A stretch of DNA of 64,000 nucleotides from a virus: IMG/VR virus record IMGVR_UViG_3300049491_000716, positions 1 through 64,000 of that record; one strand, written 5' to 3'. A model generated the notes under the pieces. It did not search any database, had not been told where the DNA came from, and saw only the letters and a program-made list of their open reading frames with translations. The position numbers were made by a program, and so were the translations under genes. Positions 13,186 through 57,244 of this stretch are shown in pieces. The stretch's first letter is position 1. The number at the start of each line of letters is the position of its first letter.

Positions 13186-13214
13186 ATCGTACACAACAAA
13201 ACTGGGATGCGCAA
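13186..13214 (-). promoter_or_regulatory. Leftward early promoter with operator
   Basis: Read leftward: TTGCGC (13214-13209), a 17-bp spacer, TACGAT (13191-13186). The motif TTTTGTTGTG (complement of 13192-13201) abuts the -10 box. A repressor there would shut off the Cro-like gene and the whole left operon. Confidence 0.6.
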
Positions 13215-13302
13215 CTTTTTTGCACAAGCCATCTTTCATGACCTCAGGTTTTGTTAAAGCCAAGAATGTGCTGAAAACATTATTTGCGAGCCGCCCATGA
13301 TT

Positions 13303-13335
13303 TTGGTTGTGTCGCCGCTTTTGTTGTGCGATGAT
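13303..13335 (+). promoter_or_regulatory. Rightward early promoter with two operator-like sites
   Basis: TTGTGT (13307-13312), 17 bp, GATGAT (13330-13335). TTGGTTGTGT overlaps the -35 and CTTTTGTTGTG (13318-13328) lies just before the -10, mirroring the leftward promoter. The boxes match consensus only moderately, so strength is uncertain. Confidence 0.5.
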
Positions 13336-13795: not shown

Positions 13796-13944
13796 CGCAA
13801 ACTGCGCTGCCGACGCATGTCGGCTCGAACGGTGCCGGAGCGATGGAGCGCGGCGCGTATATCAGCCCGTGCGGGCGCTACCTGGGGCTGCCTGAAACTT
13901 TGAGCCTTGCGTACCCGCAGGGCGGATGGGAGCAACGAAGATGA
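13792..13944 (+). CDS. Small hypothetical protein, 50 aa
   Basis: Starts at GTG in a 4-bp overlap with the preceding gene and ends in an ATGA overlap with the next. Gly-rich; no domain recognised. Confidence 0.5.
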   Translation: MTQTALPTHVGSNGAGAMERGAYISPCGRYLGLPETLSLAYPQGGWEQRR

Positions 13945-14186
13945 TGATGGAACAGACTTGCACCGCCTCCAAGCTTGTGATGCGGCTCCGGGAGTTGATT
14001 GAAAAGCATGGCGATCTGCCCGTGTACGCTCGCGACCCCGATACACACTGGCGCCTTCCGGTCGGTTTGCGGTTTCGAGACGCGCAGCCAGAGGAAGAAA
14101 GGCCGGCCCGCTTTGAAATTGAAAGCGAGTATCACTTCCGGCCGCGTGGCGATCTTGTACCAGCCGAAGACCTTGAGTCCAATTGA
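13941..14186 (+). CDS. Small hypothetical protein, 81 aa
   Basis: Begins at three consecutive ATG codons in overlap with the previous stop. The pattern VMRLRELIEKHGDLPVYARD...LPVGLRF resembles small phage proteins of unknown function in which a helix is followed by a beta hairpin. Confidence 0.55.
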   Translation: MMMEQTCTASKLVMRLRELIEKHGDLPVYARDPDTHWRLPVGLRFRDAQPEEERPARFEIESEYHFRPRGDLVPAEDLESN

Positions 14187-14219: not shown

Positions 14220-14301
14220 GCCTAACGGTTGAGCTAACCGGCGATTTGCGGAGGCGGGGTTTGGGCTAGGCTTTTATAGCCAAAACCCCGCCCATGTAGG
14301 C
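14220..14301. repeat. attC-like palindrome, left boundary of cassette 1 (degenerate)
   Basis: GCCTAAC (14220-14226) at the left pairs with GTAGGC near 14296-14301. Inside lies a strong hairpin, GGCGGGGTTT (14253-14262) with AAACCCCGCC (14283-14292). The outer boxes match the attC inverse and core site pattern, but the right core lacks one T of GTTAGGC. No terminator T run is present. Confidence 0.4.
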
Positions 14302-14313
14302 AACTGGAGGACG

Positions 14314-14646
14314 ATGATGACAGACGGAAAGCTACTTGAAGCCGCCGCAAAGGCTGCGGGGTTTGCCTACCGGTGGGAGCCGGGACTGCCATTTCCTCAG
14401 ATTGAAGAGCTGGAAGATGGTCGGCTTGAATGGAACTTCTGGCATCCGCTAACGGACGACGGCGATGCGTTGCGGCTGGCGACACAACTGCGCATTGACA
14501 TTTGTTTCGAGAAAACGCATTCGGTCAGTGCCTATACAGAGGATGATGAGTGGTTTCACGAACACTGCGACCAAGGGAAGCCCGAGCAGATTTTGGCCAA
14601 GACGCGTAGGGCGATTGTTTGCGCAGCCGCTTCTATGTCGGCATGA
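14314..14646 (+). CDS. Phage ABA-sandwich-like protein in a cassette-like unit, 110 aa
   Basis: Starts at ATG 14314 after CTGGAGG. The pattern LLEAAAKAAGF...WNFWHPLTDDGDALRLATQL resembles the small phage ABA-sandwich family, which also occurs in integron cassettes. The gene stands alone between two attC-like palindromes, 13 bp after one and 14 bp before the other. Biochemical function unknown. Confidence 0.65.
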   Translation: MMTDGKLLEAAAKAAGFAYRWEPGLPFPQIEELEDGRLEWNFWHPLTDDGDALRLATQLRIDICFEKTHSVSAYTEDDEWFHEHCDQGKPEQILAKTRRAIVCAAASMSA

Positions 14647-14659
14647 GGGTATTGGTGCT

Positions 14660-14759
14660 GCCTAACGTCGAAGCTCAGGCGCCCGACACGGCGCCTGGGT
14701 TGACGAAGTAGGCAAGGTGCGGCCCGCCGTGGCGGGTCGCTTGGAGCGACCAGTTAGAG
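14660..14759. repeat. attC-like site, right boundary of cassette 1
   Basis: GCCTAAC (14660-14666) and GTTAGAG (14753-14759) bound a 100-bp imperfect palindrome. The outer arms pair well: CTAAC..GTCGAAGCTC against the complement of GGAGCGACCAGTTAG. Two inner hairpins are present (CAGGCGCC/GGCGCCTG; GCGGCCCGCC/GGCGGGTCGC). Length and architecture fit integron attC sites. The stop codon of the leftward HTH gene lies in the right core box. Confidence 0.55.
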
Positions 14760-14948
14760 CGCTGATGGATCAGGAGCAACCGATGCAGGACGACCGACAG
14801 GGCGAGCAGGCACACCGACTTGCGAGGCGATGCGGCGTGCCTGGTGCACTGACAGCCCGAATTTGCGCGCAGCTTCGGCCGCAGTGCCGTGGCCAGCGGC
14901 GAGCCACTTGGCTACGCGCTCGGCCGCCGCGGATGGGCGCCCGCTCAT
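14754..14948 (-). CDS. HTH protein, 64 aa
   Basis: Residues 8-45 (AERVAKWLAAGHGTAAEAARKFGLSVHQARRIASQ) form a helix-turn-helix of the resolvase/MerR type. Last gene of a three-gene leftward unit. Its TAA stop falls inside the attC-like core box, suggesting truncation or fusion at the cassette junction. Confidence 0.6.
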   Translation of the reverse strand: MSGRPSAAAERVAKWLAAGHGTAAEAARKFGLSVHQARRIASQVGVPARPVGRPASVAPDPSAL

Positions 14949-15133
14949 TCGGCGCGCTCGAAGTCGTGACGAATCACGGCGCGGCCGTTGTCGACCCAGC
15001 AGTACAAGCCGCCGATCGCTTCGGCGTCGGCCTCACACTGTTCGCGGTGCCCGGACGAGACGAACTCGCCAGCCTGCGTGAACACGGCGGCGTCGGCCGG
15101 GAGTGCGTCTTTAGGAAGTTGCAGGCTCAGCAT
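14945..15133 (-). CDS. Small hypothetical protein, 62 aa
   Basis: A compact alpha/beta protein ending GGLYCWVDNGRAVIRHDFERAE. Overlaps the HTH gene by ATGA. Unknown function. Confidence 0.55.
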   Translation of the reverse strand: MLSLQLPKDALPADAAVFTQAGEFVSSGHREQCEADAEAIGGLYCWVDNGRAVIRHDFERAE

Positions 15134-15145
15134 GGCGGCTCCGAA

Positions 15146-15445
15146 TCAGCGAGCGTTGGCGGCGTCGAACTTGGCTTGCTTCCAGGGCGATCTGGCGCGG
15201 GCAGCGGCTTCGCGGGCTGGACGGTCGGCTTGGATGATTGTGTCGAGCTCGCGGCCGATCTGACCGTGAGTGAACTTGACATAGGCGGCGTTTGCAGCAT
15301 CGACAGCAGCCTTGAGCGGCTTCAGTTGTTCGTAGCGAGCCTTCGAGTTCAGGCCGGCAGCGGCGAGGCGGTCACGCTCGGCGTCATGGGCAGCAGCGGC
15401 GGTGTCGAGGACTTGCTTCAGCGCGGCGATCTTGGTGGTGTTCAT
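15146..15445 (-). CDS. Helical coiled-coil-like protein, 99 aa
   Basis: Almost entirely helical and rich in Ala, Lys, Arg (TTKIAALKQVLDTAAAAHDAERDRL). ATG 15445 is preferred over an upstream frame extension because the promoter at 15479-15507 lies just upstream. Function unknown. Confidence 0.6.
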   Translation of the reverse strand: MNTTKIAALKQVLDTAAAAHDAERDRLAAAGLNSKARYEQLKPLKAAVDAANAAYVKFTHGQIGRELDTIIQADRPAREAAARARSPWKQAKFDAANAR

Positions 15446-15478
15446 GGTGCTGGTCCGGTTGCGTTGTTCGATGAATGA

Positions 15479-15507
15479 ATAATAGAGCATCATGCACCAT
15501 TACGCAA
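15479..15507 (-). promoter_or_regulatory. Leftward promoter
   Basis: Read leftward: TTGCGT (15507-15502), exactly 17 bp, TATTAT (15484-15479). It would drive the three-gene unit ending at 14754. A nearby palindrome CTAGTTTTGCTAG (15511-15523) could bind a regulator shared with the rightward gene at 15543. Confidence 0.6.
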
Positions 15508-15542
15508 GGGCTAGTTTTGCTAGGACAAACCCGGAGCGCAAC

Positions 15543-15731
15543 ATGAACACTTACTCAATCACCGAAATCATTGCTGCGGCCAAAGCGGCCAACAACGGCC
15601 GCCTTCTGGCTTTTGCAATGACCGAGCCCCAAAAGCGCGCCGCAGAAAAGGCTGTCGCACGCGGCCTGATGACCGCGTACCACATGAAATTCCCCGGCTT
15701 CGGTTTCGTTGCAGCCTACGCAGTGGCCTAA
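15543..15731 (+). CDS. Small hypothetical protein, 62 aa
   Basis: ATG 15543 has a CGGAG site; the longer frame upstream overlaps the divergent promoter. Helical N-terminus (ITEIIAAAKAANNGRLLAF) and a short hydrophobic tail. No family recognised. Confidence 0.55.
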   Translation: MNTYSITEIIAAAKAANNGRLLAFAMTEPQKRAAEKAVARGLMTAYHMKFPGFGFVAAYAVA

Positions 15732-15734
15732 ACC

Positions 15735-15995
15735 ATGAACAACGCGCACTCAATTACAACGATCAAAGACTTGCGCGATGCGCCGTGGCTTGACCCGCGA
15801 TGCGCCGATGCTGGGGCCTGCCAATCGCTTCGGTATATGGAAGCGCCGCCAATGTTGACAAATGAACAAGTGCTGCGAATCCTAGATTCCGTGCGCGAGC
15901 AATTTGCAAAAGACGGGCCGCCGAATGAAAGCGGAGCGCTGCTGTTTGCGCGTGCAATCGAACGAGCGCACGGCATCAAAAATGAACGTCGCTAA
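15735..15995 (+). CDS. Hypothetical protein, 86 aa
   Basis: Starts three bases after the previous stop. The C-terminal half is helical (LTNEQVLRILDSVREQFAKDG). Unknown function. Confidence 0.5.
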   Translation: MNNAHSITTIKDLRDAPWLDPRCADAGACQSLRYMEAPPMLTNEQVLRILDSVREQFAKDGPPNESGALLFARAIERAHGIKNERR

Positions 15996-16161
15996 GACGC
16001 CAGCCCAGCGCCAGGCCGAGCGCAAGGCCCGCGAGCTTGCATCAGGCCGCGTGCAATGGAAGCTCTGGGTTCACCCTGATGATGTGCCAGAGCTGGCGGA
16101 ATACGCCGACAAGATGGCGCGGCGCAGGGAACGTGCCGCGAAGGCAAGTCCGGTTGAATGA
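15982..16161 (+). CDS. Small basic phage protein, 59 aa
   Basis: The pattern QRQAERKARELASGRVQWKLWVHPDDVPELAEYADKM is common in small phage proteins, with basic residues then a VHPDD turn. It overlaps the preceding gene by 14 bp. Possibly nucleic-acid binding; not established. Confidence 0.6.
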   Translation: MNVAKTPAQRQAERKARELASGRVQWKLWVHPDDVPELAEYADKMARRRERAAKASPVE

Positions 16162-16260
16162 AATGTTGTGCATCACACGCGCTGACGCGGCACAATAGAC
16201 GAAGCCCGAATCATGGCAAGTGCAACGGGCTTCTGATCAACAACATCGGGAGTCGAAGAA
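16162..16260 (+). promoter_or_regulatory. Leader with operator-like motif and hairpin
   Basis: ATGTTGTGC near 16163-16171 resembles the early operator motif. GAAGCCCG (16201-16208) and CGGGCTTC (16226-16233) form an 8-bp stem just before the helicase-methylase gene. The hairpin lacks a T run, so it may be an attenuator or mRNA-stability element. Confidence 0.4.
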
Positions 16261-18531
16261 GTGACTAAAAGCATTGTAGGCGGGTACGAGTCATTCATTC
16301 AAGACAAAGCGCTGGCGCAGATTGCGACGGGCTTTGATCCGCAACGACTCGGCCCCCACCTGTTCGATTTCCAGGCGGCCATCGTCGAGTGGGCTTGCAA
16401 GCGAGGCCGCGCTGCGATCTTCGCTGACACCGGCCTGGGCAAGACGGCGATGCAAGCCGAATGGGCCAGACAAGTAGCGGCCCATACTGGTGGCCGCGTG
16501 CTGATCCTGGCCCCTTTGTGCGTGGCACAGCAGACTGTCGAAGAAGAGGCGCGATTCGGCACTGCGATCAAGTATTGCCGCAAAGAGGCACAGACAGAAG
16601 GCGAGATCATCATCACGAATTACGAGATGGCGGACCACTTTGACGTAGCCGACTATGCCGGCGTGGTGCTGGATGAGTCTTCGATCCTGAAGAGCCACGA
16701 CAGCAAGACGCGGGCGCGCATCATAAGCATGTTCGACAAGACGCCGTACCGGTTGAGTTGCACCGCGACCCCAAGCCCGAACGATCACATGGAGCTTGGC
16801 AACCAGGCCGAGTTCCTGGGCGTGATGACGGCCGTTGAAACGCTGGCGATGTTCTTTGTTCACGACGGCGGAGACACCGCAAGCTGGCGCCTGAAAGGCC
16901 ACGGCAAGCAGCGCTTTTGGGAGTGGATGAGGACATGGGCTGTGTGCGTGCGCAACCCGTCGGACCTTGGCTTTGATGGATCGCGCTACATCCTGCCGGG
17001 CCTGCAAATGCACGAGCACACAATCGATGTGCAAGAGCCGCTGCCGGGGCAGTTGTTTGCTGGCATTGCGCAGACGCTGACCGAGCGCCGCGACGCAAAG
17101 CGGCAGTCGTTGGGCGAACGTGTTTGCATTGCCGCCGATCTGGTCAACAGCCACACGCGGCCAGCCATTGTGTGGTGCCACCTGAACGACGAAAGCAAGG
17201 CGTTGGCGCAGGCCATCCCCGATGCCATCGAAGTCACCGGTTCCATGACGGCCGACGAGAAAGAGGCCGCAATCATGGCCTTCACGCATGGCGAGAAGCG
17301 AGTGATCGTCACAAAGCCAAGTATCGCTGGATTCGGCATGAATTGGCAGCACTGCGCCGATATGGTTTTTGCTGGTCTTGATGACTCGTTCGAGAGCTTT
17401 TACCAGGCGGTGCGGCGCTGCTATCGCTTCGGCCAGAAAGACGTGGTGAACGTGCATCTGGTGTCGTCAAGTGCCGAGGGCGCAGTGAAGGAAAACCTGC
17501 AGCGCAAGCAAGCCCAGGCTACTGACATGGCCGAGAGCATGGTGGCGTACATGCGAGAACTCACGAAACAAACGATCAAGGGTGCGACGATGGAAAAGAG
17601 CGACTACGTGCGAGAAGTAGCCGAGGGCAAGGGCTGGACGATTCACCTTGGCGATTGCGTCGAAGTGGCAAGCGAACTGCCTGACAACAGCATCGACTTC
17701 TCAGTGTTCAGCCCGCCGTTTGCCAGCCTATACACCTACAGCAACAGCGATCGCGACATGGGTAACTGCAAGAGCTACAGCGAGTTTTACGATCACTTCC
17801 GGTTCCTCGTTGCGCAACTGTACCGCGTCACCAAGCCTGGCCGGCTGCTGAGCTTCCATTGCATGAATCTGCAAACCAGCAAGTTCCGCGACGGCGTGAT
17901 CGGCCTGCACGACTTCCGTGGCGAACTCACGCGCATGTTTGTCGCGGCCGGCTGGGTCTTCCATTCCGAGGTTTGCATCTGGAAAGACCCCGTGACCGCG
18001 ATGCAGCGCACCAAGGCCCTGGGCCTACTGCACAAGACCATCCGCAAGGATTCGAGCATGAGCCGGCAGGGCATCCCTGATTATCTGGTGACGATGCGCA
18101 AGCCTGGCGAGAATGCCGAGCGCATCAGCCACACTCACGAGAATTTCCCTGTCGAAAAGTGGCAGCGTTACGCCAGCCCGGTCTGGATGGACGTGAACCC
18201 GACTCGCACGCTTCAATTTCGCAACGCCCGCGAGACTGACGATGAGCGCCACATCTGCCCGCTCCAGCTTGACGTGATCGAGCGAGCTATGGAGTTGTGG
18301 AGCAACCCGGGCGACTTGGTTTTTAGCCCGTTTACGGGCATCGGCAGCGAGGGCTATGTGAGCATCGAAATGGGCCGGCGCTTTGTTGGCGCGGAACTCA
18401 AGCGGAGCTACTTCGACTTGGCAAAACGCAATCTGACTGATGCCCGCAAGACTCAGGTCGAAGGGCTGTTCGCTGACGATTACGAGGATGCATTTGCAGA
18501 AGATGGCGAGCCACAGGCGGCGGAACTGTGA
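16261..18531 (+). CDS. Helicase-DNA methyltransferase fusion, 756 aa
   Basis: The N-terminal 430 residues form a superfamily 2 (SNF2-like) ATPase: Walker A ADTGLGKT (55-62), DES (138-140), SCTAT (166-170), QAVRRCYRFGQ (382-392). The C-terminal part is a beta-class amino-methyltransferase with catalytic SPPF (484-487) before the SAM-binding FSPFTGIGSEG (688-698). Such fusions occur in phages and may mark phage DNA against restriction; the target site is unknown. GTG 16261 follows GGGAG. An internal ATG (residue 444) could yield the methylase alone. Confidence 0.88.
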   Translation: MTKSIVGGYESFIQDKALAQIATGFDPQRLGPHLFDFQAAIVEWACKRGRAAIFADTGLGKTAMQAEWARQVAAHTGGRVLILAPLCVAQQTVEEEARFGTAIKYCRKEAQTEGEIIITNYEMADHFDVADYAGVVLDESSILKSHDSKTRARIISMFDKTPYRLSCTATPSPNDHMELGNQAEFLGVMTAVETLAMFFVHDGGDTASWRLKGHGKQRFWEWMRTWAVCVRNPSDLGFDGSRYILPGLQMHEHTIDVQEPLPGQLFAGIAQTLTERRDAKRQSLGERVCIAADLVNSHTRPAIVWCHLNDESKALAQAIPDAIEVTGSMTADEKEAAIMAFTHGEKRVIVTKPSIAGFGMNWQHCADMVFAGLDDSFESFYQAVRRCYRFGQKDVVNVHLVSSSAEGAVKENLQRKQAQATDMAESMVAYMRELTKQTIKGATMEKSDYVREVAEGKGWTIHLGDCVEVASELPDNSIDFSVFSPPFASLYTYSNSDRDMGNCKSYSEFYDHFRFLVAQLYRVTKPGRLLSFHCMNLQTSKFRDGVIGLHDFRGELTRMFVAAGWVFHSEVCIWKDPVTAMQRTKALGLLHKTIRKDSSMSRQGIPDYLVTMRKPGENAERISHTHENFPVEKWQRYASPVWMDVNPTRTLQFRNARETDDERHICPLQLDVIERAMELWSNPGDLVFSPFTGIGSEGYVSIEMGRRFVGAELKRSYFDLAKRNLTDARKTQVEGLFADDYEDAFAEDGEPQAAEL

Positions 18532-18532
18532 T

Positions 18533-18590
18533 GCACAACGTTTGAATTCACCTGCCGCCGGAGGCGGTCAGGTGGAATGAAGGGTTATGC
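18533..18590. repeat. attC-like site, left boundary of cassette 2
   Basis: GCACAAC (18533-18539) and GTTATGC (18584-18590) are the outer boxes of a 58-bp imperfect palindrome. The arms (TTTGAATTCACCTG-CCGCC against GGCGG-TCAGGTGGAATGAA) pair with a few extrahelical bases, which is the attC hallmark. GTTATGC is also the core box of Vibrio cassette repeats. Confidence 0.6.
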
Positions 18591-18620
18591 GTCTGATTCA
18601 ACAACGAAGGAATTTGAAGC

Positions 18621-18875
18621 ATGAGACAAAGCCTGTTGGTAGCCGCGCTTGAATATGAGGAAGGCGGACAAACTCTGTGGTTTCATGCGCCTGATGGAAC
18701 GACGCTGCTGCGCCTAAAAGTCGATGGAGCTATCACGACACAAACATGCGAGACAAGCCCTGTCGCGCATGCCGATGGATGGGTGAAGGGGAACTTGGTT
18801 TTTTGCGTTCCGGAGAACAAGACGCATAACGTCGGCGATGAGCGGACCGCGAAGGCGCCGCCTACCGACGAGTGA
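18621..18875 (+). CDS. Cassette-type hypothetical protein, 84 aa
   Basis: A soluble beta-rich protein (QTLWFHAPDGTTLLRLKVDG). Its last 17 residues are encoded by the downstream attC-like site, as often happens in integron cassettes. The start lies about 36 bp after the presumed recombination point, a normal cassette leader. Function unknown. Confidence 0.6.
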   Translation: MRQSLLVAALEYEEGGQTLWFHAPDGTTLLRLKVDGAITTQTCETSPVAHADGWVKGNLVFCVPENKTHNVGDERTAKAPPTDE

Positions 18876-18925
18876 AGAAGCAATGCGGCCCGCCGGAGCG
18901 GGTCCGCTCGATCAACCTGTTCGGC
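18824..18925. repeat. attC-like site, right boundary of cassette 2
   Basis: GCATAAC (18824-18830) to GTTCGGC (18919-18925), 102 bp. The arms pair as GATGAGCGGACC with GGTCCGCTCGATC; an inner hairpin GCGGCCCGCC/GAGCGGGT follows. The right half is strikingly like the right half of the site at 14660-14759. Confidence 0.55.
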
Positions 18926-18931
18926 TAGAAG

Positions 18932-19051
18932 GTGCAAAGCGATGGGAGCTTGCACGTCTTCAATGACTCCGCAACGAGCCAATACGTGAAGGTGTCGGGC
19001 TCGGTCGTGGTTTCTGCTGCGGATGGAGGTGGCCCGGACATGGCAACCTGA
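18932..19051 (+). CDS. Possible 39-aa peptide
   Basis: GTG start seven bases after the attC-like core. Beta-like sequence (DGSLHVFNDSATSQYVKVSG). It could be a remnant of a third cassette gene. Weak support. Confidence 0.3.
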   Translation: MQSDGSLHVFNDSATSQYVKVSGSVVVSAADGGGPDMAT

Positions 19052-19130
19052 CTACGCCACCAAGATGGACCGCGATACCTTGCAGCACGCAGAGGACTTC
19101 GCGGACTGCAAGACGCCCAACGTGTTCTAG
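19023..19130 (+). CDS. Possible 35-aa peptide
   Basis: Overlaps the preceding ORF in another frame; ends DFADCKTPNVF. No independent evidence beyond position; only one of the two overlapping ORFs is likely real. Confidence 0.25.
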   Translation: MEVARTWQPDYATKMDRDTLQHAEDFADCKTPNVF

Positions 19131-19170
19131 GCAACTCGTTAGATTGCAACCAGACCCAAGAGATGTGAGG

Positions 19171-19302
19171 ATGTGGCGCGCGTATCGCGATGGCGAGCCA
19201 TGGATCGTTGACGGCCGGCCGATGCGCGGCGGTCTTGAGATGATGTGGCGTGCGATCCAAGCCGAGATCGCAAAGCCACTTGGTCGTCGACACTGGAACT
19301 GA
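19171..19302 (+). CDS. Small hypothetical protein, 43 aa
   Basis: MWRAYRDGEPWIVDGRPMRG with a helical end. It directly precedes recT. A GTG six bases upstream is an alternative start. Unknown function. Confidence 0.45.
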   Translation: MWRAYRDGEPWIVDGRPMRGGLEMMWRAIQAEIAKPLGRRHWN

Positions 19303-19332: not shown

Positions 19333-20391
19333 ATGAGCAACGAACTCGAAGTCACCAAGCAAGCCATCGTCGAACAAGACACCAGTGCGGCGGGCCTGAT
19401 GTTCACGCCTGGCGCCATGCAGCAACTGGTCGCCGTTGCCGACTTCATGGCCAAGGGTCGCGCCACCGTGCCGAAGCATCTGCAGGGCAACCAAGGCGAT
19501 TGCTTGGCTGTCGTGATGCAGGCCACCACGTGGCGCATGAACCCGTTCGCCGTGGCTCAGAAGACGCACCTCGTCAACGGCGTTCTCGGATACGAGGCTC
19601 AACTCGTGAACGCTGTCGTCAACACCATGGCGCCGACCAAGGACCGCATCAACTACGAGTGGTTCGGCGAGTGGACCCGCGTGATGGGCAAGTTCGAGGA
19701 ACGCGAGTCAAAGAAGAAGGTCGACGAAGACACCGGCAAGCCACTGAAGTACCGCGTGCCGAATTGGAACATCAAGGACGAAGACGGTCTCGGCATCCGT
19801 GTGTGGGCCACCATGAAGGGCGAGGCCGAGCCGCGCGTTCTTGAGTTGCTGCTCGTGCAGTGCCGTGTCCGCAACTCGCCGCTGTGGGCCGACGATCCGC
19901 GCCAGCAGATTGCCTATCTTGCCGTCAAGCGCTGGACCCGCCTGCACTGCCCCGACGTGCTGCTCGGCGTATACACGCCGGATGAACTCGACGACGCGCC
20001 GGTTCCGAAGGACATGGGCGCCGCCGATGTGGTCGGAAAGCCTGTGGATCCGAAGAATCCTCCGGGCCTGAGCGATGCCGAGCTTGCGGCATGGCGCCGG
20101 GAAGCCACTAAGGGGCTGGCAGCCGCCGAGGCGCACTGGAAGGCCATGGGTCGCGAGTTGCGCATGAAGGCCACCATGGACCAGCAGGTTGAGATGCGCA
20201 GGCTTGCCGAGGAAGCCGACAAGAAACGCACGGTGGACAACGGTGCCGCCGAGACCAAGACGGCGCAGCCCGCCACCAATGCCCCGGCTGCTACCGTGGC
20301 CGCCAAGGCCGACCCAGCAACCGGTGAAGTTGATCCCGACTTCGTGGCCGCCATGGATCGCGCCGAGCAGGCGGCTGGCGCGAAGGCCTGA
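19333..20391 (+). CDS. recT: RecT-family single-strand annealing protein, 352 aa
   Basis: It pairs complementary single strands during phage recombination. Core motifs are present: FMAKGRATVPKHLQGN, CLAVVMQATTWRMNPFAVAQK, VNGVLGYEAQLVNAV. The C-terminal 100 residues are low-complexity and charged. ATG 19333 follows ATAGGAG. It is paired with the YqaJ nuclease gene immediately downstream, as in Rac-prophage RecET-like systems. Confidence 0.9.
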   Translation: MSNELEVTKQAIVEQDTSAAGLMFTPGAMQQLVAVADFMAKGRATVPKHLQGNQGDCLAVVMQATTWRMNPFAVAQKTHLVNGVLGYEAQLVNAVVNTMAPTKDRINYEWFGEWTRVMGKFEERESKKKVDEDTGKPLKYRVPNWNIKDEDGLGIRVWATMKGEAEPRVLELLLVQCRVRNSPLWADDPRQQIAYLAVKRWTRLHCPDVLLGVYTPDELDDAPVPKDMGAADVVGKPVDPKNPPGLSDAELAAWRREATKGLAAAEAHWKAMGRELRMKATMDQQVEMRRLAEEADKKRTVDNGAAETKTAQPATNAPAATVAAKADPATGEVDPDFVAAMDRAEQAAGAKA

Positions 20392-54834: not shown

Positions 54835-55574
54835 GCCAGGGCTTCCTTCAAGTCGGCGAGTCGGAAGCACGTCAGGCGCGTTGACCGCGTGCAGTTCACC
54901 ACCTCCACGCCGGCCTTCTTGATGTCGTGCGCCAGCGGGTCAAATGCCTGAATCCAGAGTTCGAAGAGGTAGTTCGGGATGCCTGTCAGCGGCTTCGGGT
55001 GATCGCTGTGCCAGTGCTTGCCGTGCATGTCGAAGCCCAGCAGGATGATCTTCTTGGCGCCGGCCTGATACGCGAGGTTGATCGCCTGGTAACCGCCGTT
55101 GCGGCCTTGGTTGATCACGCCGGGCGTCTTGTTCAGGCCTGAACCCGGCCGGCTTTCGATGTGCTTGACGCCTTCGTGGGCGACATTCTTGTCTTGTGTC
55201 CAGAACTCGGATTTGCTGACGCGGCGCGCTTCGCCGATGTACTGGTTCCACCACGGCGCATCGCATGCGTAGAGGACGTCCGCCCACGGCGCCAGCATGA
55301 AGGTGGTGTTGATCGCGATGACCCGGCGGCCGCCCGCGGCTTCTCGCCACTCGCGCACCAGCTCGCAGTCGGCCAATTTCAGGCTCTGCCCGCTGGCCAG
55401 AATCACGACTGTGTCGCCGGCCCACTCGAGGCCGCGCCACGCGAAGCCGCCAAACGGGCGGGCTTCACCCGTCGCGATCATGGCTTCTGCCGTGGTCTGA
55501 TCAGCCTCAAAGGTGGACCCTTCAAAGATGGTGCCGACGGCATGGCCGATCGGCTTCAGCGCGATCATCTTCAT
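54831..55574 (-). CDS. DUF115/Maf-type glycan transferase-like protein, 247 aa
   Basis: DTVVILASGQSLKLADCELV, RRVIAINTTFMLAPWADVLYACDAPWW and AKKIILLGFDMHG are the Rossmann-like motifs of DUF115/Maf proteins; some Maf proteins add nonulosonic acids to flagellin. It follows the collagen-like gene directly with an ATGA overlap, making that protein a natural candidate substrate. Confidence 0.7.
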   Translation of the reverse strand: MKMIALKPIGHAVGTIFEGSTFEADQTTAEAMIATGEARPFGGFAWRGLEWAGDTVVILASGQSLKLADCELVREWREAAGGRRVIAINTTFMLAPWADVLYACDAPWWNQYIGEARRVSKSEFWTQDKNVAHEGVKHIESRPGSGLNKTPGVINQGRNGGYQAINLAYQAGAKKIILLGFDMHGKHWHSDHPKPLTGIPNYLFELWIQAFDPLAHDIKKAGVEVVNCTRSTRLTCFRLADLKEALA

Positions 55575-57244
55575 GTGTATCGGCGGTCTTGCCCGGGCAG
55601 GCCGCGCTCTCCCTTTTCGCCACGATCACCGTCTTTGCCGTCGCGGCCGTCGCTGCCCTTCTTCACGATCAACTGCCAATCGGCGGTCAGCGGCTTCTCA
55701 CGTGTTCGGGTCTTGCAGTGATGCATCGAACCAGCCCATGTGACCTGATCACCAGGCAGGTATTCCTCGCCTTCGCGGAACACGCCCTTGTAAAGCGGCA
55801 CCGGGATGTTGAAGGACTCGGCGGCGGCCGTCTTCCCGAATGCGGTGATGCTCTTGAACTCAAAGGATCTCGGGTCGGTTTCGCTTTGCACGAACACAGT
55901 CTTCACAACCGGGTCAAGGATGATGTCCCAACCGGATTCCTCAACGCCGGCCGTGATCGGGTCCGTTGTGCGGATGGCGGTCATCAAGCCGCCGCGGTGC
56001 TTGGCAAAGGTGCCGCGGGCGTAGCTTCGGGTTTCGTCAATCGCCGGCAGGATGGTGATGTGCAGAGCATCGCGGCCCGGCGCGCCATCCTTGCCGTCGC
56101 GCGGCGCTGGCATGTCCTGAGCTGCCCGAGCCACCATCAAGCGAATCACGGCCGGGTCGGCATCGGCTCCTTTTTCGCCGTCCTTCCCGTCTCGGCCGTC
56201 CTTCGGCGTCGGGATCTCGGCAACCGCCTTTGCCACGAGTTCGGCGACGACAGCCGGGTCGACATCTTTGCCGGGGGCGCCAGGTTCTGCCGGCGGCAGC
56301 GACTTGACGTGTGCAGCCACGATCTCGGCAACCATCTGGACGCTGACATCCTTGCCGTCGGCACCGTTCGCCCCGTCTTTGCCGTCAACACCATCACGAG
56401 GCCGCGGGATCTGGTCAACCGCCTTCGCCACCAAGTCAATGATGACAGCCGGGTCAACGCTCTCGCCATCGCGGCCGTCTTTAGGAACCGGGATCTCATC
56501 CAAGAATTTGCTGACTTCAGCCAAAACATCCTTGGCGATTTCGGCGGGGTCTGCGTCTTTCCCGTTCGCGCCGTCCTTCGGCTTCGGCATGGCAGCCACG
56601 GCCTCAGCCACGCTGGCCTGCACCATGGCTGCCAGTTCTTCAGGATCCGGGCCTTCACCGTCACAGCCGTCGGCGCCGGGCGGGCCGACCAGCGAGTCCA
56701 GCCATTCTGGCTCTGTGCCGACGAAGCCATTGGCCACAGCCAGTTCGTAGGCTGACTTGCCGTCGGCGCCGTTGATGCCATCCTTCGGGATCGGGATTTC
56801 ATCCAAGAACTTGCTGACCTCAATCAGAACGTCCTTGGCAATCTCGGCGGCGTCGGCATCTTTGCCGTCCACCGCCTTCGGGAGAAGCGCGACGGCGCGC
56901 TGCACGGCGGCATCGATGACGGCCGGGTCGGCGTCGCGACCATCGCTGCCGTCTTTGCCGTCCATGCCTTTCTCGCCGGGTTCGCCCTTGACCGACTCGC
57001 CGCGAAGAGACTTCAGCCATGCGGCCTGGTCGCCATCGAAACCGCAGGCCTTGGCAACCTCAAAGGCGCCGAGACCGTTCAAGCCGTCGGCGCCGTCCTT
57101 GCCGTCCTTGCCCGCCGGGATCTCGGCAAAGCGAGCCAGCAACGGCTCGATCGCCGTCTTGAGGCGACGATCGAACTCGACACCAACATAGCCTTTGACG
57201 GCCAGGAAGATGGAGTCCGAGAGTGCTTTGATGTCGCCCTTCAT
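55571..57244 (-). CDS. Collagen-like virion protein with alternating helical modules, 557 aa
   Basis: Short GXY triplet blocks (GKDGKDGADGLNG, GEPGEKGMDGKDGSDG) alternate at least six times with a module of about 30 residues like DPAEIAKDVLAEVSKFLDEIPVPKDG. A globular domain follows (about 425-530), then a final GXY tail. Such trimeric fibres occur on phage heads and tails. Lys and Asp dominate the X/Y positions. Confidence 0.82.
   Translation of the reverse strand: MKGDIKALSDSIFLAVKGYVGVEFDRRLKTAIEPLLARFAEIPAGKDGKDGADGLNGLGAFEVAKACGFDGDQAAWLKSLRGESVKGEPGEKGMDGKDGSDGRDADPAVIDAAVQRAVALLPKAVDGKDADAAEIAKDVLIEVSKFLDEIPIPKDGINGADGKSAYELAVANGFVGTEPEWLDSLVGPPGADGCDGEGPDPEELAAMVQASVAEAVAAMPKPKDGANGKDADPAEIAKDVLAEVSKFLDEIPVPKDGRDGESVDPAVIIDLVAKAVDQIPRPRDGVDGKDGANGADGKDVSVQMVAEIVAAHVKSLPPAEPGAPGKDVDPAVVAELVAKAVAEIPTPKDGRDGKDGEKGADADPAVIRLMVARAAQDMPAPRDGKDGAPGRDALHITILPAIDETRSYARGTFAKHRGGLMTAIRTTDPITAGVEESGWDIILDPVVKTVFVQSETDPRSFEFKSITAFGKTAAAESFNIPVPLYKGVFREGEEYLPGDQVTWAGSMHHCKTRTREKPLTADWQLIVKKGSDGRDGKDGDRGEKGERGLPGQDRRYT

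Follow-up and report, generated by a model that had tools for sequence, protein, structure and literature searches.

The first 64,000 bases of an 80,304-base virus record (the window) contain, between a helicase-methylase gene and recT, an arrangement that raises the question of whether an integron-type gene cassette has been captured by a phage. The initial annotation had described an 84-residue open reading frame (ORF84) bounded by two palindromes with the layout of attC recombination sites, and we found the frame (18621-18875) and the palindromes (58 bp at 18533-18590 and 102 bp at 18824-18925) where it had placed them. The frame was also said to run into the downstream site, and codons 70-84 of ORF84 do fall within 18824-18925. 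Likewise, the absence of a visible integron integrase extends from the window to the entire 80,304-base record, which may be incomplete: searches with TIGR02249 (E up to 10) and PF00589 (E up to 1) gave no match.

For scoring candidate sites we collected 80 bacterial loci around integron integrases, yielding 53 non-redundant attCs from which a pair-aware scoring model (pair-PSSM) was built, and made an Infernal covariance model from 18 short bacterial attCs with well-covarying base pairs. A scan by fold energy only was dropped as nonspecific, since it flagged palindromes of high GC content within the tape measure gene as well; a geometry score took its place, followed by the pair-PSSM with nulls. 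Three intact sites and two half-sites were recovered, of which the initial annotation had seen only the two palindromes beside ORF84:

18533-18590, minus strand (conventional attC direction): attC S3, 58 bp, predicted cut between 18538 and 18539.
18824-18925, minus strand: attC S4, 102 bp, with the polarity of S3, predicted cut between 18829 and 18830.
14660-14759, minus strand: attC S2, 100 bp, polarity as in S3 and S4.
14220-14243, minus strand: orphan 5' half-attC, GCCTAACGGTTGAGCTAACCGGCG, half-site PSSM 26.5 bits.
16148-16171, minus strand: orphan 3' half-attC ending in CCGGTTGAATGAAATGTTGTGC, half-site PSSM 26.4 bits.

The covariance test that the annotation had proposed bore out the attC layout of both its palindromes, S3 scoring 62.6 bits (E = 7e-14) and S4 38.0 bits (E = 2.4e-7), and gave S2 37.5 bits (E = 3.4e-7); beyond these three, the best match in the ~80-84 kb searched reached only 13.9 bits (E = 0.66). 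By pair-PSSM the scores were 58.1 (S3), 40.6 (S4) and 48.0 bits (S2), against null maxima of 14.3 bits in 1.54 Mb of other phage sequence, a set that leaves out the real array in L119/L120, and 16.9 bits in 2.56 Mb of Markov sequence. Half-site maxima in 3.0 Mb of other phage strands were 18.2 (5' half) and 15.7 bits (3' half). The pair-PSSM recovers the attCs of phage TJE1 at 40-45 bits and detects none in phage P12002L despite published attCs there, so the model under-detects other attC types.

S3 (18533-18587) shares 85.5% identity over 55 nt with the aacA34 attC of class 1 integrons (E = 1e-7), and its arms are those of an attC-like site on a Polaromonas plasmid. The proposed fold of the palindromes gave a divided result: the S3 minus strand folds at -13.8 kcal/mol (z = -4.6, equaled by 0/200 shuffles) and its plus strand at -14.8 kcal/mol (z = -3.8), whereas the minimum-energy structure of S4 folded alone does not take the attC form (z = -1.7). 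The outer boxes of S4 pair at 5/7 positions only, and both of its arms match canonical attC geometry. Transcription terminators or other attC-like hairpins, a notion suggested by GC-rich hairpins immediately 3' of genes, can be dismissed in view of covariance-model E-values of 7e-14 to 3.4e-7, no T-run, conserved unpaired G and T, ~86% identity with a clinical attC, and boxes that are complementary between sites 240 bp apart.

A palindrome at 13191-13329 was considered as a fourth site on a geometry score of 32.0 and was lost in both the PSSM and the covariance model. We also considered that the two half-sites were one attC split by a 1.9-kb insertion, with L-stem arms pairing 6/6, but 8% of unrelated arms do the same, and complete attCs follow the homologs of the neighboring frame ORFc in contigs L268 and L277; separate deletion is therefore more likely, and the 16148-16171 half-site has apparently lost its 5' arm and loop. 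Just 3' of the 14220 half-site there is a strong inverted repeat, GGCGGGGTTT...AAACCCCGCC (14253-14292), which may be a terminator. As in the integrase-free arrays known as CALINs, the region has at least two same-orientation attCs within ~4 kb (14660, 18533 and 18824) with attC fold and sequence features (R boxes, L boxes, extrahelical bases and a variable loop). The stretch from 14220 to 18925 (at least 4.7 kb) is probably the remnant of an integron-type cassette array in a phage, as one part of the fuller explanation given below.

In bacterial cassettes the gene lies on the strand opposite the attC bottom strand. This bottom strand, the one that recombines, bears an unpaired G and usually an unpaired T in its 3' arm (PMC2727003). 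By the positions of the extrahelical G and T, it is the plus strand of the window sites, which is also the gene strand, that has the bottom-strand form. The reference orientation was fixed independently, from aacA34 and neighboring cassettes with annotated genes and from TJE1. We at first took the sites for a normal plus-strand array, a view excluded by the extrahelical bases together with the aacA34 homology, and a minus-strand frame that would make S4 canonical (ORF122, 18925-19293) has a codon score (-0.26) of the non-coding kind. Read from the DNA, then, the window genes (the helicase-methyltransferase, ORF110, ORFc and ORF84) face against attC polarity, so that a gene running along the attC direction with the attC at its 3' end, the usual CALIN layout, is not what is found here. 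The genes and reading frames of the array are as follows:

13926-14186, plus strand: ORF86, putative, on codon score only; its end is 34 nt 5' of the 14220 half-site.
14314-14646, plus strand: ORF110, a cassette-type gene matching phrog_5086 (1.9e-20); its end is 14 nt 5' of S2.
14717-14770, plus strand: GTG start in the S2 loop, read through the 3' arm (VRPAVAGRLERPVRAL...), a leader type common in phage arrays.
15982-16161, plus strand: ORFc, 59 aa, upstream of the helicase-methyltransferase.
16261-18531, plus strand: fusion of an SNF2-type helicase and an N6-N4 DNA methyltransferase, 756 aa, with flanking boxes that are exact complements.
18539-18829, no strand assigned: predicted mobile unit of 291 bp, comprising the S3 hairpin, ORF84 and the closing half-box.
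18577-18624, plus strand: possible 15-codon leader, MKGYASDSTTKEFEA and a stop, starting at an ATG in the S3 3' arm.
18621-18875, plus strand: ORF84, 84 aa, last codons within S4.
18883-18966, plus strand: ATG in the S4 loop, read through the 3' arm (MRPAGAGPLDQPVRLEGAKRWELARLQ and a stop; MRPAGAGPLDQPVRL...), decayed.

In an integron array the opening and closing boxes of a unit arise from one recombination and are complementary, with pairing extendable to 9-11 nt, and the integrase cuts the bottom strand between the A and the C of RYYYAAC (PMC2727003). The ORF84 boxes, GTTATGC and GCATAAC, are exact complements over 11/11 nt (GTTATGCGTCT at 18584 and AGACGCATAAC ending at 18830), and joining the ends of the unit gives a hairpin of -24.8 kcal/mol (z -8.1), compared with -14.8 kcal/mol (z -3.8) in the array. 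By its sequence, the segment with ORF84 is a genuine unit of recombination. Given a polarity opposite to ORF84 and this cutting rule, the unit would be 18539-18829, made up of S3 and ORF84, and the attC would lie 5' of the gene. In the same way the box GTTGTGC (16165-16171) exactly complements the S3 5' box GCACAAC (18533), so the helicase-methyltransferase belongs to the array and not to its flank. No such complementarity links S2 with S3, which are separated by other DNA. Across phage arrays, the 3' box of an attC and the 5' box of its successor are complementary in 161/207 pairs (78%), compared with 48/207 for a site's own box and 22% after shuffling; for bacteria the counts were 53/66 and 88/119. 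Of the proposed cassette captured between the helicase-methylase and recT, then, the attC sites and the recombination unit between them (the 11-nt box match) stand, but a standard cassette of a gene followed by its own attC is not supported, since attC polarity opposes ORF84, and the helicase-methylase is a neighboring array unit and not a flank; both this and the reversed polarity had been overlooked.

Searches of Pfam, PHROGs, IMG/VR, GTDB genomes, plasmids and the other arrays turned up no homolog of ORF84 that could confirm its translation; in an excised circle it would stop after 71 codons at a TGA inside S3 (GTTTGA). The stop of the 15-codon leader and the start of ORF84 overlap (ATGA), no more than a suggestive feature. 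The helicase-methyltransferase matched PF01555 (1.6e-16), Helicase_C (1.8e-8) and phrog_16 (1.2e-74). The closest relatives of ORFc among the fetched sequences are in other phage attC-array contigs, with tblastn matches in L277 (82%), L321 (74%) and L268 (73%) and also in L318, L265 and L314. The gene behind the S2 GTG leader is disrupted by a minus-strand module (14754-15493), and the S4 ATG reading is probably a decayed remnant of the following unit; recT, at 19333, is the next gene after the array. The module itself breaks the plus-strand array immediately after S2 and holds three small ORFs, one with an HTH match (PF13518, 5.5e-5) and two with good codon scores. Among relatives of the helicase-methylase (80 loci) and of RecT (80 loci) there was no synteny to the region, and no empty site could be demonstrated. 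Elsewhere in the window, a predicted portal protein (55571-57244, minus strand) matches tail-fibre/collagen-like families over its N-terminal half, an odd fusion or a low-complexity insert.

We then compared phage arrays at large with bacterial ones. IMG/VR was scanned for a degenerate attC motif, giving 77 stretches, with polarity counted across 79 phage loci, and 399 Burkholderiales genomes were scanned with the identical motif as a control (76 positive). Polarity was called from the strand of the longest ORF ending at each attC; the survey covers one attC subtype, its contigs are not fully independent, and duplicates were removed by attC sequence. Phage attCs were predominantly reversed (174, with 68 canonical and 39 undecided), whereas same-motif bacterial attCs (11 reversed, 127 canonical, 31 undecided; Fisher p = 1.8e-36) and integrase-adjacent attCs (12, 81 and 13) were predominantly canonical. 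Counted by contig, phages had 52 reversed and 15 canonical, and bacteria 3/59 and 2/43. As ORF length can mislead, the coding strand was checked against PHROGs with 45 reversed ORFs and 45 length-matched ORFs of the other strand, and 19 families were matched by the former and 2 by the latter. Within this one attC subtype, the sequences show that the reversed layout holds for most phage attC arrays found and is rare in bacteria; the quarter of phage sites scoring canonical are mostly, though not provably, shadow ORFs. Three IMG/VR contigs (L281, L323 and L328) carry canonical attC arrays, possibly bacterial integrons beside prophages.

Several array-bearing contigs contain tail, portal, tape-measure or replication genes. 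The cargo of the reversed ORFs included C5 and N6 DNA methyltransferases, an RNA ligase, a PAPS-reductase-like protein, DUF5131, a deoxynucleotide phosphatase and NinB, and one cassette in a reversed phage array (L255:3863-4138, minus strand) is a gene with the Acb2/Tad1 hairpin domain, of anti-CBASS type (PF24729, E 1.5e-14). It could be supposed that standard bacterial cassettes merely landed in phages in reverse, in which case polarity would be meaningless beyond the genome of the window; reversed cassettes do occur in bacteria at low frequency (11/138 decided sites), and the attC arrays of phages TJE1 and M16-3 are canonical. We find this improbable, because a reverse landing flips the whole cassette and would leave the direction of the gene relative to its own attC as it was, yet here that relation is reversed, and is so in 52/67 decided phage contigs, with array genes that belong to phage families.

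The reversed layout places the attC ahead of its gene, and among long phage attCs (80-160 bp) 61/112 contained the start codon of the ORF behind them, required to run at least 60 aa beyond the attC, compared with 15/82 in bacteria (p 3e-7). A Shine-Dalgarno-like stretch accompanied 37/61 of these internal starts in phages and 4/15 in bacteria, and the arm that is read through yields recurring N-termini, AVGxxVERGVRxL and LGLSEGLGP. Short attCs had no excess of internal starts (17/158 phage vs 18/189).

Such observations could also mean that phage attCs have lost recombination and are retained for no role other than marking gene boundaries (translation start, terminator), as the half-sites, the degenerate S4 boxes, the integrase-free record and the starts inside long attCs might suggest. 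Against this quite unlikely reading, recent movement elsewhere is implied by the 78% of intact box pairs and by a 381-bp unit that is 99.2% identical in two phage contigs (L309:1115-1495 and L336:4014-4394), the identity being confined to the unit. In both contigs the identity stops where the first box of the following attC ends, and a second shared-unit pair, at 81% identity, has the identical edge. Apparently full-length integron integrases, 53-56% identical to IntI1, are encoded in the attC-bearing IMG/VR contigs L304 (1489-2529), L279, L307 (8588-9568) and L311 (9547-10512); those of L304 and L279 sit in contigs with reversed-type arrays, and L307 and L311 have few attCs, with a canonical score. 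IntI fragments were found in L254, L302 and L308.

The left identity edge of the shared units lies inside the attC, away from the cut site, which IntI alone does not explain. It is what would be expected of hybrid sites from homologous exchange, and an account in which attC arms are shared homology for a phage single-strand annealing recombinase, shuffling units without an integrase, can also point to recT (19333) adjoining the array and to a Sak ssDNA-annealing protein in L306. Annealing leaves unexplained, however, the box rule in 161/207 junctions, the sharp right edge at the first box, and the integron integrases and fragments beside several arrays, and as a replacement for integrase we think it unlikely, if the strongest of the rival accounts; as an alternative or additional route, RecT or Sak annealing at the conserved arms would explain the left edge inside the attC.

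We put at roughly three in four the probability of our overall explanation, a phage integron-type array of reversed polarity whose units, each an attC with the gene downstream, were moved by an integrase and which is now decaying. The plus strand of each attC would fold on single-stranded DNA during replication, injection or conjugation, and an integron integrase, provided in trans either by the host or by an integrase-bearing relative, would cut between the A and the C of the RYYYAAC box, excising or inserting units of attC plus downstream gene, which would leave the attC at the 5' end of the gene. Long attC variants would supply the start codon, often a Shine-Dalgarno-like stretch, and the first residues, and the short S3 may supply a leader peptide coupled to ORF84; because the attC carries start signals, a unit could be translated at any position of a phage operon that runs in its direction, with no need of an integron promoter. 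In the phage of the window the array appears to be decaying, with half-sites, a disrupted downstream gene and no integrase, and its units may now serve the phage like any other accessory genes; the methyltransferase plausibly shields the phage DNA against restriction.

Arrays of attCs without an integrase (CALINs), with DNA methyltransferase cassettes, were published in phage genomes by Qi et al. 2023, who also reported that phage attCs recombine with attI1 by IntI1 (PMC9892861). The window array is like these phage CALINs in being integrase-free and in having DNA methyltransferase genes among its cassettes, but in TJE1 and M16-3, the two that our model could read, the gene precedes the attC, whereas in the window the attC precedes the gene with opposed polarity. 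In that paper (PMC9892861) we found nothing on how genes are oriented with respect to attC, and in the open-access literature, which as a search is weak evidence, no report of reversed attC polarity or of start codons within attCs. Class 1 integron cassettes (aacA34, aadA) share with the window the attC structure, R boxes and extrahelical bases, and unlike them the window array has its genes on the opposite strand relative to the attC, no intI and phage-type genes. The sedentary chromosomal integrons of Burkholderiales share with phage arrays the attC subtype (76/399 genomes) and the box rule, but differ in polarity (127 canonical and 11 reversed, compared with 68 and 174 in phages).

Integrons are known from bacteria, where they capture genes as cassettes that for the most part rely on one common promoter. 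We consider the case evenly balanced for a broader proposal, that phages, probably mainly those infecting Burkholderiales and related hosts, maintain a pool of reversed-polarity cassettes of their own, in which the attC is a translated 5' leader (ribosome site, start codon and first residues, e.g., VERGVR or LSEGLG in long forms), making self-expressing units that could be traded among phages by the integrases found in some, with counter-defence and DNA-modification cargo. If true, such a phage counterpart, with its polarity opposite, its start signals in the recombination site and its counter-defence cargo, would amount to a second cassette economy and would account for some of the modular turnover that phage accessory genes undergo. 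Phage arrays will be misread by tools and papers that infer the direction of a gene from that of its attC, and reversed ORFs between attCs offer a simple sequence signature for new anti-defence genes.
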